Shown here: in pieces, positions 2-6,277 of the stretch | How positions within the stretch are numbered: the stretch's first letter is position 1 | Layout of the letters: every line of letters starts with the position of its first letter | Assembly: GCA_030622265.1 (NCBI GenBank) | Contig: JAUXGG010000083.1 | Span: 1-7,061 of the forward strand | DNA from: Candidatus Eiseniibacteriota bacterium | GTDB taxonomy: Bacteria > Arandabacterota > Arandabacteria > Arandabacterales > Arandabacteraceae | DNA: 7,061 bases | Direction: 5' to 3' | Made by a program: the position numbers and the translations under genes | Notes under the pieces: model-generated | Told to the model about the DNA's origin: nothing | What the model saw: only the letters and a program-made list of their open reading frames with translations | Database searches by the model: none

Positions 2-427
2 AGTTTCGGCCTGCCTGTGGGCGAGTACGATAAGCGGGCCAGAGGGTTCAGGGAGTACCGGAACCTGGCCACCGAGGTAGTGGAGGATGAAGGGGAGGTC
101 AGGGTGGAGGAGGCGCTTCAGGTCTCGAAGGATGTTCCCGAGAAGGAGACTTACGGGCCGATGCCCGTGCCCGGCGGCGTGCTCTTTAAAATCGAAGCCC
201 AGGGCGCCAACAAGGTCTCAGTGATAGGTGACTTCAACTCCTGGGCAGACCCGGTCGAGCTCAACGATGATGACGAGGATGGAACCTGGATCGCGATAGC
301 GCGGATGGATCCCGGCACCTACCAGTACAAGTACATCGTGGATGGTAAGTGGCAACACGATGCGGCCAATCCTGTTGATGTTGATGATACCCACGGAGGG
401 CGGAACTCGATCATGGTGGTGAGATAG
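2..427 (+). CDS. ParA-family ATPase C-terminus fused to an AMPK-type glycogen-binding (CBM48) domain, 5' partial
   Basis: The reading frame is open to the left edge, so the gene begins upstream; the GTG at 17 is probably an internal Val. The first visible residues, SFGLPVGEYDKRARG followed by FREYRNLATEVVE, follow the pattern that ends ParA/Soj ATPases (SFGKP...YD...G...Y..LA.EV). I therefore read this as the tail of a ParA ATPase whose Walker motifs lie outside the window. A charged linker (about 89-180) leads into a complete E-set carbohydrate module (about 170-427). It contains GDFNSW, then YQYKYIVDGKW and a terminal GGRNSI. The four residues known to contact glycogen in AMPK beta (W, K, W, N) are all matched, at codons 242, 329, 350 and 404, so glucan binding is plausible. 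Stop TAG is 1 nt before the next ATG, implying co-transcription and perhaps translational coupling. CBM48 identity is firm; the ParA assignment rests on about 28 residues. Confidence 0.85.
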   Translation, partial: SFGLPVGEYDKRARGFREYRNLATEVVEDEGEVRVEEALQVSKDVPEKETYGPMPVPGGVLFKIEAQGANKVSVIGDFNSWADPVELNDDDEDGTWIAIARMDPGTYQYKYIVDGKWQHDAANPVDVDDTHGGRNSIMVVR

Positions 428-428
428 G

Positions 429-1388
429 ATGATGAGTGAGCGGCCCAGTCGACCTGCCAGAAGAAGGAAACTGGGCCGGGGTCTAGCTGAAGTCTCACAC
501 ATCTTCCTGTCCGGCGCCGAGAAGAACCTCAAGGATGATCCCGATCGTGATTCCGACAATGCCCCCAACGGCGCTCCCGATGGCGGAGGGGAAGCGCTAT
601 GGCTTCCGGATGCCAACCTCATAAGCATCACCTCCGGGGAGAAGATACAGGGCAAGACCTTCCTTGCCGCGAACCTGGCCTTCGGACTCTTCGCCGAGGG
701 CAAGAGCGTCGGCATCGTGAATGCCGATTCGGAGAAGCCTGACATCCTCGACATGATAAGCGCCGTCCCATCAGAGAGCGGTGACGGCCTAGCGATAGCT
801 TCTCCCAGGTTTGGGGGGCTTCCGGTCGGCGACGCCTTCGGAGGTTTCGACCCTGTGACCGGGGAGAGCCCGGGAGATAGAAAGGTCTCATCGCTTGCCG
901 CCCTCGAAGCTGTTGCGGGGCGGGCGCAGAGCGTCGTCATAGACACCTCGCCGTGGGCCGAGCCCGGCCGGGCGGTTTGGTCGGCGGCCGGTCTTACTCT
1001 GGTTGTTGCCAGGGCAGGCTCGGACGCGATGCAGGCATCCTATGTCACGGTGAAGCGCGTGCGGAGTATGTCACCGGTGGGGAGGATAGGCCTGGTTGTG
1101 AACATGGCGTCGAGCCGGGCGGAGGCTCACAAGTGTTTCAGGAAGATGTCGGAGGTGTGCCGGCGTTTCCTCAAGACCAATATCAGGGACTATGGCTATA
1201 TTGTGCAGAGTGAGATTGCGGGTGAAGCCTGCAGGAAGGCGGTACCCCTGGCTCAGGCGTATCCTGAGTCGGCTGCGACGAAGTGCATCCATTCGATTCT
1301 GAAGCTCATAATGATGGATGAATCTGCAATTGCTAGAAGACGGAGGGAGGTGACGTTTAAGACGTGCGCATTGAGAGAAGGAAGATAG
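429..1388 (+). CDS. FlhG/MinD-like P-loop ATPase with ParB-like N-terminal LGRGL peptide
   Basis: A 319-residue SIMIBI-class ATPase, presumably cytoplasmic or peripheral at the membrane. Residues 11-29 are a basic peptide (RRRKLGRGLAEVSHIFLSG), followed by a low-complexity D/P/G linker to about 55. The ATPase core begins near 63. ISITSGEKIQGKTFLAANLA (65-84) is the Walker A region; GK-T (75-77) is intact, but the MinD/ParA signature lysine position is Glu71, with Lys72 one place later. D100 (VNAD) and D172 (VVIDTSP, Walker B) are present. The C-terminal half (VVNMASSRAEAHKCF, then DYGYIVQSEIAGEACRKAVPL) resembles FlhG/FleN/YlxH rather than classic ParA. The start is ATG 429 or the adjacent ATG 432, behind a GGTGAGATAGG stretch. 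It lies between a ParA-like gene and a nuclease-like gene, and no flagellar gene is visible, so flagellar placement is not supported. CpsD-type BY-kinase is an alternative for the P-loop, but no Tyr-rich tail is present. Confidence 0.82.
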   Translation: MMSERPSRPARRRKLGRGLAEVSHIFLSGAEKNLKDDPDRDSDNAPNGAPDGGGEALWLPDANLISITSGEKIQGKTFLAANLAFGLFAEGKSVGIVNADSEKPDILDMISAVPSESGDGLAIASPRFGGLPVGDAFGGFDPVTGESPGDRKVSSLAALEAVAGRAQSVVIDTSPWAEPGRAVWSAAGLTLVVARAGSDAMQASYVTVKRVRSMSPVGRIGLVVNMASSRAEAHKCFRKMSEVCRRFLKTNIRDYGYIVQSEIAGEACRKAVPLAQAYPESAATKCIHSILKLIMMDESAIARRRREVTFKTCALREGR

Positions 1389-2182
1389 AGAGTGCCGGTG
1401 AGCTGACCACAATGGTCACCGAGGTGCTCCAGGACGAGATCAGCGGGTTCGAAGTGATCGACACAGTGGATCCCAGCCAGGACGGCGGGATCGAAATCGG
1501 TCTTCTTGCCTGTAACAGTGAAGGGCGCGTCTTTGTGGTAATGGCGAAGGATCGTCTGGGCGATAGCCTGGTTATGAGCTACGGAAAGCATCTGGAATGG
1601 TTCAAGACGAATAAGGACAGGATGTCCGCCGATAAGCCCCACCTTGACTGGGACAGGCAGCCGGGATTGGTAATGGTGGCCGACGGCTTCAGCCCCCATG
1701 CTCTGACTCTGGCCTCGCTGCTGGGAGTCGAGCCCAAGGCATGTTACTCCATGAGATGCCTTGGCATGGGGGAAGAGAAGGGTCTTCTCGTGGAACCCGT
1801 CGAGGTTCCGATAGCCGGGTCGGTGACGGCCGCTCCCGCGGCATCCGCACCCCAACAGGAAAGCGATCTGCTTTCCAGGGCCGTTAACGGGGTGGTTGAT
1901 GTCGCCGAGGACCTCTCGATCTCGGCATCGTTTGGCTATGTGAGTGAAGCCCTTGACTGGGTTCCCGTTGCCAATCTGCGAAGCCGCAGGGGAACTATCT
2001 GGATAGAGTCCGGACCGGGGAAGTGGTCCACCAAGCGAATAGAAGATGATGACTCGCTCCGGAGCGCCCTCGAGGCGGTGAAGCAGAGTTATGACGAGGT
2101 CGTCAGGACCGAAGGCGGGGCCAAGAACCTTGGTGAGGATGAGCTCTCGGAGGCCGAACGCAAGAGCCTGAGGTGGGAGTAA
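1364..2182 (+). CDS. Protein with degenerate PD-(D/E)XK-nuclease-like N-terminal domain, function unknown
   Basis: A 272-residue soluble protein with no signal peptide or TM segment. Start GTG 1364 is chosen because an in-frame TAA lies at 1358, and a strong GGAGGGAGG (1342-1350) sits about 13 nt upstream; ATG 1412 (residue 17) is the alternative. It overlaps the upstream gene by 25 nt. Residues 28-80 show a beta-beta-alpha pattern: DTVDPSQDGGIEIGLLA, then GRVFVVMAKDR, then a helix with YGKHLEWFK. This resembles NucS/DUF91-like restriction-endonuclease folds (hydrophobic-D-LLA...VVVELK...RY..W). In this reading the catalytic Asp is Glu44 and the E-x-K is Met60-Ala-Lys62, so nuclease activity is doubtful. 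QPGLVMVADGFSPHAL (about 104-119) would be the next strand and helix. The rest (from about 150) is acidic with WVPVANLRSRRGTIWIESGPG (split across about 203-223), unrecognised. The fold assignment is by pattern only. Confidence 0.62.
   Translation: MRIERRKIESAGELTTMVTEVLQDEISGFEVIDTVDPSQDGGIEIGLLACNSEGRVFVVMAKDRLGDSLVMSYGKHLEWFKTNKDRMSADKPHLDWDRQPGLVMVADGFSPHALTLASLLGVEPKACYSMRCLGMGEEKGLLVEPVEVPIAGSVTAAPAASAPQQESDLLSRAVNGVVDVAEDLSISASFGYVSEALDWVPVANLRSRRGTIWIESGPGKWSTKRIEDDDSLRSALEAVKQSYDEVVRTEGGAKNLGEDELSEAERKSLRWE
2171..2179 (+). promoter_or_regulatory. Shine-Dalgarno that points to a CTG start
   Basis: AGGTGGGAG lies within the last codons of the upstream gene. It is 7 nt before CTG 2187 and 4 nt before CTG 2184. 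No ATG, GTG or TTG exists in the downstream protein's frame between the in-frame TGA at 2169 and GTG 2313. This ribosome site is therefore the best evidence for a non-canonical start at 2187. Confidence 0.5.
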
Positions 2183-2186
2183 GCTG

Positions 2187-3098
2187 CTGGTTGACAGAGA
2201 CGATGCCGGCCGGTCGAACGGTACGATAACCGGCACGGAGCCGCGGGAGCTCGAGCCGACGGAAGGCATAATAATATCAGTTGTCGCCTATGGCGTCGCC
2301 TTTATCTTTGCCGTGATTGTCACCTACTCGGGTGGAGTGTCGATTCGCGCGGAGACCTCCCTCTTCACGCTGCTTATGTTCCTCATAGCTTATGCCATGG
2401 TGGCCAGGTCTGCGGGCGACCCCATGCGCTGCGTTCGCCTCAGGCGAGCAAGGCCGCTGGTGATCCTGTGCTCCGTGCTGGCGAGTCTCGCGATAATTCC
2501 GCTGGCCGTTAGCCTCCAGGCGCTGGTCTTCTCCTGCATCGAGATACCCGAGAAGTGGATGGAGTACGTCCTGGAGGTTATCCGGGCGGAGAGTGTGCCG
2601 GAGCTGATCTATGCCTGGCTGGTAGTGGCTCTTGGTGCGGCCGTAAGCGAGGAGTTTGTGTTCAGGGGAGTCTTCCAGAACTCTCTGTCCAACAGGATGC
2701 GCGGATGGGGCGCCGTCCTCGTGACCTCGGGCGTGTTCGCCGCCCTTCACACCTGGAGATTCCCCGCAGCATTCATCATGGGCTTCTTCCTGGGTATGCT
2801 CTACCTGCGGACGCGGTCGATCCTGGTTCCATTCATCGCCCACCTTACGATCAACTCGGTGGTGGTGTTCACGCAGTACGCCATAGACAAGCGGGGAGAG
2901 GATCTGTTTCCCCGCTGGCTGGTAGAGGAGAGGATGGCTCCTTTCTTGCTGATCGCAGTCTCGGGGCTCGTCTTCGTGCTCCTCATGTCGCTGCTTTTCC
3001 GCTTGACCCGGAGCGAGGCCCGGAAGCCGTGGTCGCCTGAGGCGGACAACACGGGTGATCCCCCGGCCGGCACTCTCTCGACAGGTGGTCTCTCATGA
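2187..3098 (+). CDS. CPBP-family (Abi) intramembrane metalloprotease, probable CTG start
   Basis: A multi-pass membrane protein of the CPBP/CAAX-prenyl-protease-like family (PF02517); such proteins are intramembrane proteases used in CAAX processing, bacteriocin immunity or undefined roles. With CTG 2187 as residue 1 (303 aa) the family motifs are complete: EEFVFR at 155-160 (EExxxR), FAALH at 184-188 (FxxxH) and HLTIN at 219-223 (HxxxN). About eight hydrophobic segments are visible. The first (about 28-48, IIISVVAYGVAFIFAVIV) would be cut in half if GTG 2313 were used. The frame is open back to 2172, and AGGTGGGAG fits the CTG. Other explanations are a mutated start codon or an assembly error in the 2180-2220 stretch. 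It begins 4 nt after the upstream stop and its TGA overlaps the next ATG (ATGA), so it belongs to the operon. Nothing in the sequence identifies the substrate. The family call is firm; the start is uncertain. Confidence 0.88.
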   Translation: MVDRDDAGRSNGTITGTEPRELEPTEGIIISVVAYGVAFIFAVIVTYSGGVSIRAETSLFTLLMFLIAYAMVARSAGDPMRCVRLRRARPLVILCSVLASLAIIPLAVSLQALVFSCIEIPEKWMEYVLEVIRAESVPELIYAWLVVALGAAVSEEFVFRGVFQNSLSNRMRGWGAVLVTSGVFAALHTWRFPAAFIMGFFLGMLYLRTRSILVPFIAHLTINSVVVFTQYAIDKRGEDLFPRWLVEERMAPFLLIAVSGLVFVLLMSLLFRLTRSEARKPWSPEADNTGDPPAGTLSTGGLS

Positions 3099-4332: not shown

Positions 4333-4348
4333 TGGCATGTCTTGTGCA
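4333..4348 (+). promoter_or_regulatory. Sigma-54-type -24/-12 promoter
   Basis: TGGCATG-TCTT-GTGCA matches the consensus TGGCACG-N4-TTGCA at all but two defined positions, and the GG and GC doublets are separated by exactly 10 bp. Taking C4347 as -12, transcription would start near 4359. That leaves a 20-nt leader holding AGGATGG (4362-4368) before ATG 4379. A weak dyad GCCAC-N8-GTGGC (4319-4323/4332-4336) overlaps the -24 element. Assigned by consensus match, spacing and agreement with the gene start. Confidence 0.5.
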
Positions 4349-4361
4349 ATACTCCATATGC

Positions 4362-4368
4362 AGGATGG
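4362..4368 (+). promoter_or_regulatory. Shine-Dalgarno supporting ATG 4379
   Basis: AGGATGG lies 10 nt before ATG 4379. Two earlier in-frame ATGs (4337, 4358) would add 7 or 14 residues ahead of the signal peptide. Both also fall upstream of the predicted sigma-54 transcription start (about 4359), so 4379 is preferred. Confidence 0.5.
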
Positions 4369-4378
4369 TGTGTGTTGT

Positions 4379-6277
4379 ATGGACAATGAAACCAGATCAC
4401 TGACAGTACTTCTGTGTGCGTTCATCTCTTGCGCGTTTCTAATAGCCCTCGCCGCGCCCTGTCACGCATCGCACGATTATCCAAGGATCTGCAACTATTT
4501 CACAGGTTACACCGACCTTGAGTATTGCGAGATGCTGAGCCGTTGGGATGTGGCGGTCCTCAATTGCATCGTGCAGGACAACAGGCCCGAGATGCCGGAT
4601 TCACTCAGGACTCTCAATCCGGACATGACCGTTATCACGTATTTCCCCGTGTCGTTCATATGGGCGGGATACGATTCGATGGGAAGGATCGGATCCGGCT
4701 ATGGTGACAAAGCCGCCGATGCCGACTGGTGGCTCTATGACACCAGGGGAAACCGTGTGGGCAACTCGGACTATGCCTGGGGCATCAACATGAGCACAAA
4801 GTGTCCCGAGGACGAAAACGGGCAGACTGCGGGTGAGTGGCTGGCGGAATATATAAGCGATGAGATTGTATCATCGGGAATGTGGGACGGATTGCTCCTT
4901 GACGGCCTGAACGAGAGGGCTTCCGGGCTGAACAACATGGAGCACTTCTTTGCAGAGCTACCGGCTGCGGTTGATGCCGACCGCGATGGGATCGCCGATC
5001 ATCCCGAGAGCCTGGACATATGGTGGAGTCAGGGGCACGAGATCTTTCTGACCCTTCTCCGGCAGGAGGTCGGCGATTCGCTGATACTCGTGGGCAATGG
5101 TAAGAACCCCAGCAAGGCAGGTTACCTCAACGGCGGCATTCGCGAGGATTTCCCCACGATGCACGGAGGCTGGGAGCCGAACATGCTTGCGCCCTATGGA
5201 TATCTGAGCATGTGCCGCGATTATCTTCAGGACCCCATGAATCTTACCTTGATGCTGTGCTGGTGGATAGACGAGGAGGCCGACATGTATGGCCCGAGGC
5301 GAACAAGTTCCTATGAGAGATTTGTTCGCTTCACCCTTTCGAGTTCACTCTTGGGCGATGGCTACCTTATCCTCAACGGCAAAGAGAGCCAGCTCTGGTG
5401 GGAGGACCTCTACGACCTCGACCTGGGAAGCCCCATCTCAGACGCCTACCTGGATTCGGTCTGGAACGACATGTATGATTGTTACAGCACAGTCTGGAAA
5501 CGGGACTTCTCCAATGGGGTGGTCTACTGCAACCCCTATGACCAGTACCTGACCCTCGAAGATGGCACGTGGCTCACTCCCACAGACGGAAGGATCAAGA
5601 GCTTCAGCCCCCCGACCGGAACGACCGTGGAAATCCTCGAGGATACCTCGCAGCGTGAGTTCGACCAAGCCGACAATACCATAACCTACTCGGTACTGCT
5701 GACCAACTCTGCTGATGAGGCCACCTATTCCTATGTATGGGCCAATCTCCTGGATGGTGCGGACACCCTGGTGGCCGGCGCCCAGGCCGAATACCTGGTT
5801 GGAGCGGGTGATACCCACTCCATGGACAGGTGCCTGAGAATCCGTAATGCTGTTCCGTGTGGGACCTACTGCCTTGAGGTCGTCCTCGGAGGCGAGAATC
5901 GCGCCATCGTCGACAGGGATACCATTCTGGTGACAAGAGTCGTCGATTTCCGCAAAGTGCAGAAGCAGGATGGAGAACTCCCTCTGGAGCAGGACAATCT
6001 TCTGGTTTTTCCTCAGCCCCTCATCGGGCCTGACGCGACGATGAAACTGGAGGTGAAGGGAACTCATTCATCGAGCAGATCGCTCACGGTCAGGCTCTAT
6101 GATGTCAGGGGAAGGTTGGTACGGACGATCATCGAGGATGAACCCGATGAGGATTCGGGTCTCGAGATTGGAATGAGAGCCGAAGGGGGTGGATCATTGG
6201 TACCCGGCGTGTATTTCGTTACTGTCGAGACCGGAGACCAGGTCCTCAGGAAGAAGGTTGTCCTCCTCCACAACTAG
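4379..6277 (+). CDS. Secreted GHL15-like putative glycoside hydrolase with C-terminal sorting (FlgD-like/T9SS type A) domain
   Basis: A 632-residue exported protein. Residues 1-30 look like a signal peptide: R6, a hydrophobic core 8-26, and cleavage probably after C-H-A30. From 32 to about 390 it resembles the hypothetical glycosyl hydrolase GHL15 family. It shows an initial strand with PRICNYF, then LNPDMTVITYFPVSF, a DWWLYDTRGNRVG strand, WDGLLLDGLNE (169-179, D170 and D175 candidate catalytic or structural acids), LILVGNG, and MLCWWIDEEAD. Residues 199-207 (DADRDGIAD) form a DxDxDGxxD calcium-loop motif. A beta-rich Ig-like part follows (about 440-525). The last 90 or so residues (540-632) have the NLLVFPQPL...VRLYDVRGRLVRTI...VPGVYFV...RKKVVL pattern of FlgD-like / T9SS type-A domains, implying surface attachment or release through the outer membrane. 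It is monocistronic in appearance behind a sigma-54-type promoter. Polysaccharide cleavage is inferred from fold resemblance; the substrate is unknown. Confidence 0.85.
   Translation: MDNETRSLTVLLCAFISCAFLIALAAPCHASHDYPRICNYFTGYTDLEYCEMLSRWDVAVLNCIVQDNRPEMPDSLRTLNPDMTVITYFPVSFIWAGYDSMGRIGSGYGDKAADADWWLYDTRGNRVGNSDYAWGINMSTKCPEDENGQTAGEWLAEYISDEIVSSGMWDGLLLDGLNERASGLNNMEHFFAELPAAVDADRDGIADHPESLDIWWSQGHEIFLTLLRQEVGDSLILVGNGKNPSKAGYLNGGIREDFPTMHGGWEPNMLAPYGYLSMCRDYLQDPMNLTLMLCWWIDEEADMYGPRRTSSYERFVRFTLSSSLLGDGYLILNGKESQLWWEDLYDLDLGSPISDAYLDSVWNDMYDCYSTVWKRDFSNGVVYCNPYDQYLTLEDGTWLTPTDGRIKSFSPPTGTTVEILEDTSQREFDQADNTITYSVLLTNSADEATYSYVWANLLDGADTLVAGAQAEYLVGAGDTHSMDRCLRIRNAVPCGTYCLEVVLGGENRAIVDRDTILVTRVVDFRKVQKQDGELPLEQDNLLVFPQPLIGPDATMKLEVKGTHSSSRSLTVRLYDVRGRLVRTIIEDEPDEDSGLEIGMRAEGGGSLVPGVYFVTVETGDQVLRKKVVLLHN

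Follow-up and report, generated by a model that had tools for sequence, protein, structure and literature searches.

The cargo known for ParA-family ATPases comprises DNA, carboxysomes, chemotaxis clusters, flagella and the divisome, and the partners of ParA and MinD proteins rely, as shown or suggested, on an N-terminus that is disordered and positively charged, according to the available part of a survey of these ATPases (PMC10241942). The word glycogen is absent from the main text of that survey, and among the best-ranked open PMC papers, judged by title and start of abstract, we found no description of a ParA with a glycogen-binding module or of ParA-driven glycogen positioning, and no paper naming a storage sugar as ParA cargo. 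Glycogen binding by a module of the kind discussed here has been described for AMPK, where the available part of one report lists W100, K126, W133, L146 and T148 as contacts, and mutation of W100, K126 or W133 markedly lowers binding (PMC2642990).

Here we describe proteins, hereafter ParA-CBM, in which a ParA ATPase is joined to a CBM48 module, together with the genes that follow them. The system resembles ParABS (Soj/Spo0J) in its Soj-type ParA domain (1wcv, E 2e-50; 8ray, E 1e-54) and in the LG(R/K)GL stretch that the tail of the partner has in common with the ParB of the same genome. Unlike ParABS, it carries CBM48 on the ATPase, the partner gives no ParB-family match while a real ParB is encoded on another contig, and the equivalents of the ATPase residues D110 and E117, contacts for the ParB tail, are mostly altered. 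With McdAB it shares a ParA-family ATPase, an adjoining partner with a basic N-terminal tail and, as we propose here, a cargo other than DNA, although McdA structures match less well than Soj (best E 7e-17 versus about 5e-28). In contrast to both ParABS and McdAB, it would be the ATPase, instead of the partner, that grips the cargo. The module has the Pfam family (PF16561), the W/K/W contacts and the fold of the AMPK beta glycogen-binding domain, but it is joined to a ParA ATPase with no kinase complex, and the L146 and T148 contacts are not kept. Finally, BcsQ of cellulose synthesis is likewise a ParA/MinD ATPase tied to a glucan, but ParA-CBM falls under the cut-off of the corresponding model, TIGR03371, and no cellulose genes were recognised in the loci viewed.

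The ParA-CBM fusion and its distribution

The window, by which we mean the whole stretch of DNA analysed, is an entire contig of 7,061 bases (C350) from genome G000 (2.29 Mb, 74% complete), and it contains the following features:

2..427, forward strand: parA-CBM48, 3' part (141 codons and the stop), with the 5' end cut by the contig end
2..85, forward strand: end of the ParA ATPase domain, ~28 residues (the sibling protein aligns to 8ray up to sibling residue 248)
155..418, forward strand: CBM48/AMPK-beta-like module, predicted to bind glycogen (PF16561, PF02922, PDB AMPK beta chains, conservation)
242-244, 329-331, 350-352 and 404-406, forward strand: codons of the putative glucan contacts W81, K110, W117 and N135, respectively (residue conservation)
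429..1388, forward strand: partner gene, 319 aa, with a ParB-like N-terminal tail and a MinD-like P-loop domain
468..512, forward strand: ParB-like tail motif of the partner, KLGRGLAEVSHIFLS (strict motif count)
636..659, forward strand: Walker-A-like stretch of the partner, GEKIQGKT
1364..2182, forward strand: third gene, 272 aa, with an N-terminal domain weakly like the PD-(D/E)XK (nuclease) fold

The first gene occupies a single open frame of 141 aa (2-427, forward strand) that stays open to the 5' end of the contig. An earlier note on this DNA had claimed that the frame starts with the end of a ParA/Soj-type protein and runs on, in the same frame, into a CBM48/AMPK-beta domain, and both claims are borne out. 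The homolog from a sibling genome of the same genus (G001; JAUVJV010000235.1, Candidatus Eisenbacteria) has 361 aa, begins with MRTIAIANQKGGCGKTTTAINL and is 96% identical to the window copy over the shared 141 aa. Residues 2-248 of this sibling protein align with residues 4-252 of the solved ParA 8ray (255 aa); sibling residues 221 and 248 correspond to window residues 1 and 28, so that the ParA fold ends with window residues 1-28. Beyond a linker comes the CBM part: AMPK1_CBM (PF16561) matches window residues 67-139 (E 1.3e-16; 61 bits, cut-off 26.8), CBM_48 (PF02922) matches residues 52-118 (E 3.2e-7), and by sequence the CBM part finds AMPK beta chains (best E 9e-10) and the SEX4/DSP4 glucan phosphatases in the PDB. 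The sibling protein contains AAA_31 (E 1.8e-53; 181.5 bits against a cut-off of 27) and AMPK1_CBM (E 1.2e-15), and the Walker motifs that the earlier note proposed to look for upstream are present in its full sequence as NQKGGCGKTTT and DLDPQ, a region in which the window copy itself is cut. The missing 5' part was not found on the other contigs of G000, and the ParA identity of the window copy therefore rests on its 28 residues and on its relatives. That the fusion is real, one in-frame protein, is confirmed; a frameshift or an assembly join between the halves is excluded because the fusion recurs across genomes (at least 29) and protein clusters (62 of 67).

Among 98 genomes searched, this domain build also occurs in open frames of 366-378 aa in G002, G003, G004 and G005. 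The 67 clusters, the query among them, were retrieved with the tail region of the G002 protein; beside the 62 with both ATPase and CBM domains, the other five list CBM-type domains only, and Nitrospirota, Candidatus Omnitrophota and Planctomycetota are among the named sources. A search with a 13-row profile detected the form that we call class A (match starting at profile position 1-4, open frame of 355-431 unless truncated by the contig) in at least 29 of the 386 genomes sampled and at no fewer than 30 loci; 28 of the 30 loci listed are full length, and those of G000 and G006 are cut by contig ends. A scan of named genomes returned 14 loci, with the fusion in one (L023, the sibling) and no KGGxGKT frame found in the other 13. 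The domain architecture, which the earlier note suggested seeking in related genomes, is thus found there, and the fusion is a widespread protein family and not a one-off.

A second form, class B, is a ParA-CBM paralogue of 356 aa in the same order, which also occurs in G000 (L037, 1204-2274; G000:C258), where it adjoins a gene with ATP-cone and PRK domains. In a tree of the first 248 residues, with the CBM excluded, the 37 class A and 6 class B rows, 43 fusions in all, are split by a 100/100 branch from seven ordinary ParAs of the sampled genomes. On a tree with just these seven ordinary ParAs, a single origin of the fusions is likely. Also common in the sampled genomes are large open frames (~990-1270 aa) in which CBM48-like matches occur twice or more (G007:C49, G076:C54, G036:C21 and others).

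Conservation of the ATPase and of the predicted glucan-binding site

Each of the 33 aligned class A proteins has KGGxGK(T/S) with the signature lysine as well as DxDPQ, and the ATPase core residues K10, K15 and D39 are invariant, as is R186. Position K215, which is K or R in 33/33, corresponds to R238 of Myxococcus xanthus ParA (we converted the M. xanthus numbering to that of 8ray by an offset of 19, obtained from residue identities), and the R238E protein lacks non-specific DNA binding, according to the available part of the report (PMC12462528). The basic residues for nucleoid binding are therefore retained in class A, which is predicted to bind DNA.

The structural model of the sibling protein (pLDDT 87.5, pTM 0.70, with linker residues 255-270 below 50) has the ParA fold, which answers the earlier note's call for a fold prediction of the full protein: the PDB matches are the Soj/ParA structures 9a6n (E ~5e-28), 8ray and 1wcv, and the 50 best contain no CBM. 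Against a viral library, the model matches AMPK-type glycogen-binding domains over 82 columns, one of them with an rmsd of 1.7, and we place these matches on the CBM part. A Soj-NrdR model gives the best fold match to the class A model; NrdR has an ATP-cone, and the parallel with the ATP-cone gene beside class B is coincidental. A viral origin was rejected, with no good whole-model BFVD match among the matches listed (best TM-score by query length 0.50), and so was a role in anti-phage defence: PADLOC matches are weak and confined to residues 4-39 of two ParA-CBM proteins, and PADLOC gave none for the partner or the third gene. Three class A proteins score 117, 106 and 112 bits with NCBIfam NF041546 (ParA family partition ATPase), under its cut-off of 180, and are thus related to this group but outside it.

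Within the CBM48 module, W301, K330 and W337, the equivalents of W100, K126 and W133 of rat AMPK beta1, are invariant in 33/33 class A proteins. The position of N355, equivalent to N150 of rat AMPK beta1, which we take to be a glycogen contact as well, has N in 29 and S in 4 of the 33. The four residues of the window copy are W81, K110, W117 and N135, in the same order. L146 and T148 of AMPK are not kept in class A; the sibling has THGG in this stretch, and L occurs at column 351 in 5 of 33. Hence the earlier claim that all four glycogen contacts are conserved stands for the equivalents of W100, K126, W133 and N150 and does not extend to L146 and T148. A wider set (A1, 27 rows) has R in place of K330 in 7 rows (3 class B, 4 class A); its 24 class A rows all keep both W, with K in 20 and R in 4. 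Conservation backs the description of the site as functional-looking, with W/K/W in 33/33 and binding as a prediction, and we infer that the CBM48 of class A binds alpha-glucan, probably glycogen.

The partner gene and its ParB-like tail

The partner gene begins one base past the parA-CBM48 stop, and its product starts with MMSERPSRPARRRKLGRGLAEVSHIFLSG. Its Pfam matches (CbiA, ParA) lie under the curated cut-offs, as do its scores with the curated MinD models (16.1 and 19.6 bits against 212.9 and 201.75). What recurs among the partners is a basic tail with the consensus LGRGLxxVSHxFLS. Among 1,763 ORFs (stop to stop, at least 90 aa) in the 30 loci listed, 18 contain the strict form [KR]x[LF]x[DEQ][VIF]SHx[FY][LF][STA], a motif defined after several partners had been seen, so that its statistics are post hoc. 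All 18 are the gene after parA-CBM48, with the motif no more than ~310 bases from the parA-CBM48 stop. The regular-expression finder returned no ParA frame in L049, L079, L080, L085 and L089, whose neighbours were read separately; the motifs of L049, L080 and L085 are included in the tally. A nineteenth motif-bearing partner, in G099, has the variant RGMEEISHIFLS, and the remaining 11 of the 30 loci have neither the strict motif nor a one-letter variant: looser look-alikes occur in G032, G125, G262 and G372, and no tail gene could be made out in G109, the second locus of G235, G106, G237, G244, G291 and G362. A loose form of the motif is present in 76 of 91 relatives of the partner; of the other 15, eight start without the tail, four are one-letter variants and three resemble ordinary ParA/MinD proteins.

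The protein behind the tail varies. A GKT/GKS loop is found in 10 of the 19 motif-bearing partners, and in nine none was matched within 170 residues of the motif; of these nine, G366, G143 and G272 give weak P-loop matches and G235 none, while the G031 partner has a cysteine-containing stretch with no Pfam match and those of G178 and G316 look similar by eye. A short tail that outlasts change in the rest of the protein is the pattern expected of an ATPase-activating peptide. However, if the tail docks on ParA-CBM, it must do so differently from that of ParB. In M. xanthus, the ParB arginine is placed near ParA Y81, E82, D110 and E117, according to the available part of the report (PMC12462528). 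The LGRGL tail is present and conserved on the partner, but the pocket residues for a ParB tail differ in ParA-CBM: the Y81 equivalent (position 60) is Y in 28 of 33 class A proteins, whereas the equivalent of D110 (position 88) is never D, and E once, and that of E117 (position 95) is E in 3 of 33. The ordinary ParB of G000, on another contig, has RRALGKGLDALIPE near its start (LGKGLDALIP), and because canonical parAB sits elsewhere in the genome, the ParA-CBM unit is a second system.

The third gene and the downstream region

At E <= 0.001 the third gene has 74 relatives, and no Pfam domain is listed for any of them. A profile HMM built from five members of the order, searched against 2,821 ORFs, found eight more members in other loci, five at E 1.8e-4 to 8.5e-3 and three at 0.013 to 0.047, with the next match at 0.52. 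Seven of the eight lie directly after the partner, and the other (L090) is downstream of a parA-CBM48 gene with no partner recognised there. The structural model (pLDDT 81, pTM 0.57) has one PDB match at E <= 0.001, EndoMS (E 8e-4, TM-score 0.26-0.30, rmsd 6.5), which we take to be a PD-(D/E)XK nuclease. The assignment to the nuclease fold is tentative because of the low TM-score, the rmsd and the lack of a (D/E)xK active-site motif evident by eye; as a guess, the third protein might serve as a scaffold or DNA contact.

The rest of the window encodes a CAAX-type protease (2313-3098), a URO-D family protein (PF01208, 3095-4165), a GHL15 glycosyl hydrolase, putatively secreted, whose Por_Secre_tail match is under the cut-off (4337-6277), and a response-regulator receiver domain cut by the contig end (6714-7061). 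Frames similar to these also follow the three-gene unit in other members of the order, by eye.

Glycogen genes

The earlier note had also proposed to look for co-occurring glycogen genes; enrichment of glgA is moderate and that of phosphorylase weak. With related genomes counted separately and P values uncorrected for descent, glgA (TIGR02095) is found in 26 of the 29 carriers listed versus 236 of 357 other genomes (one-sided Fisher P = 0.005), and the phosphorylase family (PF00343) in 23 of 29 versus 226 of 357 (P = 0.06). The carriers G006, G125 and G272 have no glgA match, and all three have a PF00343 match. In the neighbourhood of parA-CBM48, G001 and G002 have a galT-type gene (PF02744) two genes upstream, and in G001 a flavin reductase gene stands between it and parA-CBM48; the upstream starts of G003 and G005 look similar to galT-type by eye, and that of G004 does not. 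A GH57 branching enzyme is encoded ~8 kb upstream in G002 only, and a GH38 alpha-mannosidase-type gene is near parA-CBM48 in G031 and G316 (L051, 10315-13173; L083, 4423-7278), two genera of one family. We saw no consistent glycogen synteny outside the order, and a glycogen gene cluster was rejected as an explanation, since ten scanned neighbour proteins and others read by eye show no consistent link. Taken together, the link to glycogen from co-occurrence and synteny is suggestive, not strong.

Possible functions of the ParA-CBM unit

The explanation that we consider best, and advance tentatively, is that parA-CBM48 is the first gene of a conserved unit that tethers glycogen to the nucleoid and shares it between daughter cells. 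An ATP-bound ParA-CBM48 dimer would sit on nucleoid DNA while its two CBM48 modules hold an alpha-glucan granule; the basic LGRGLxxVSHxFLS tail of the partner would dock on the dimer, much as a ParB tail docks on ParA, and trigger hydrolysis that frees the ATPase. Repeated binding and release would then spread granules over the nucleoid as a diffusion ratchet. We favour this account because an ATPase that binds the nucleoid, a tail like that of an activator and a domain for holding cargo are the parts of a ParA positioning system, and because the cargo domain points to alpha-glucan. The suggestion of the earlier note that such a protein positions or partitions glycogen is plausible in this light: the ParB-like tail, the retained nucleoid-binding residues and the moderate co-occurrence of glgA speak for it, and the weak synteny with glycogen genes against it.

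The main rival, because the domain in AMPK is itself a sensor, is that CBM48 reports the glycogen store and sets the ParA switch, with the partner adjusting something else, such as division, chromosome segregation or gene expression, and nothing being moved. The same domain of AMPK is a regulatory glycogen sensor and not just an anchor, according to the available part of the report (PMC2642990), and neither the MinD-like partner, often named FlhG by JGI, nor the weakly nuclease-like third protein resembles a granule protein; the inconsistent synteny fits sensing as well. Nonetheless, retained nucleoid-binding residues and a ParB-like tail are marks of positioning systems, and no output gene is consistently attached in the loci viewed, so that we regard sensing as unlikely, if a serious contender.

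Alternatively, ParA-CBM may be a second partition ATPase for the chromosome or a protein cargo, with the CBM48 fold as a protein-protein module that binds no sugar. Class B illustrates how this could be: in the three rows checked, R, T/Q/P and V stand at the K, W and N positions, so that its sugar site looks lost, and yet the CBM fold is retained, which implies that the domain can persist without the site. In addition, the scanned partners and third genes yielded no carbohydrate domain. In class A, however, W, K and W are kept in 33/33 proteins down to 35% identity to the sibling, a constancy that is hard to explain without sugar binding, and we judge this alternative improbable. An accessory role like that of BcsQ, in which the ATPase locates or activates a glucan-making or glucan-exporting enzyme, is the least credible, for although BcsQ structures are among the fold-search matches and three class A proteins reach 66.2, 64.5 and 88.7 bits with TIGR03371, these scores are far under its cut-off of 157.85 bits, Soj/ParA structures rank higher, and no synthase gene was recognised in the scanned or eye-read neighbours.

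Implications

Returning to the tethering and partition of glycogen, the ParA-CBM unit may, on a yet more cautious assessment, be a dedicated machine for segregating a storage polymer, in which ParA-CBM48 would hold granules to the nucleoid, the ParB-tailed partner would cycle the ATPase and the nuclease-fold third protein would assist. What is new here is the ParB-like tail on the gene after ParA-CBM48, and a grip on the cargo that lies on the ATPase would reverse the usual wiring of ParA systems. The unit is also a small, testable case, amenable to assays of binding, ATPase stimulation and localisation. In an Escherichia coli csrA mutant, glycogen that accumulates at the old pole seems to keep the chromosome out and to halt division, according to the available part of the report (PMC4836754), so that even sharing of glycogen would clearly benefit the cell. 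If our account is correct, daughter cells would inherit the carbon store evenly, and its granules would not crowd out the chromosome.
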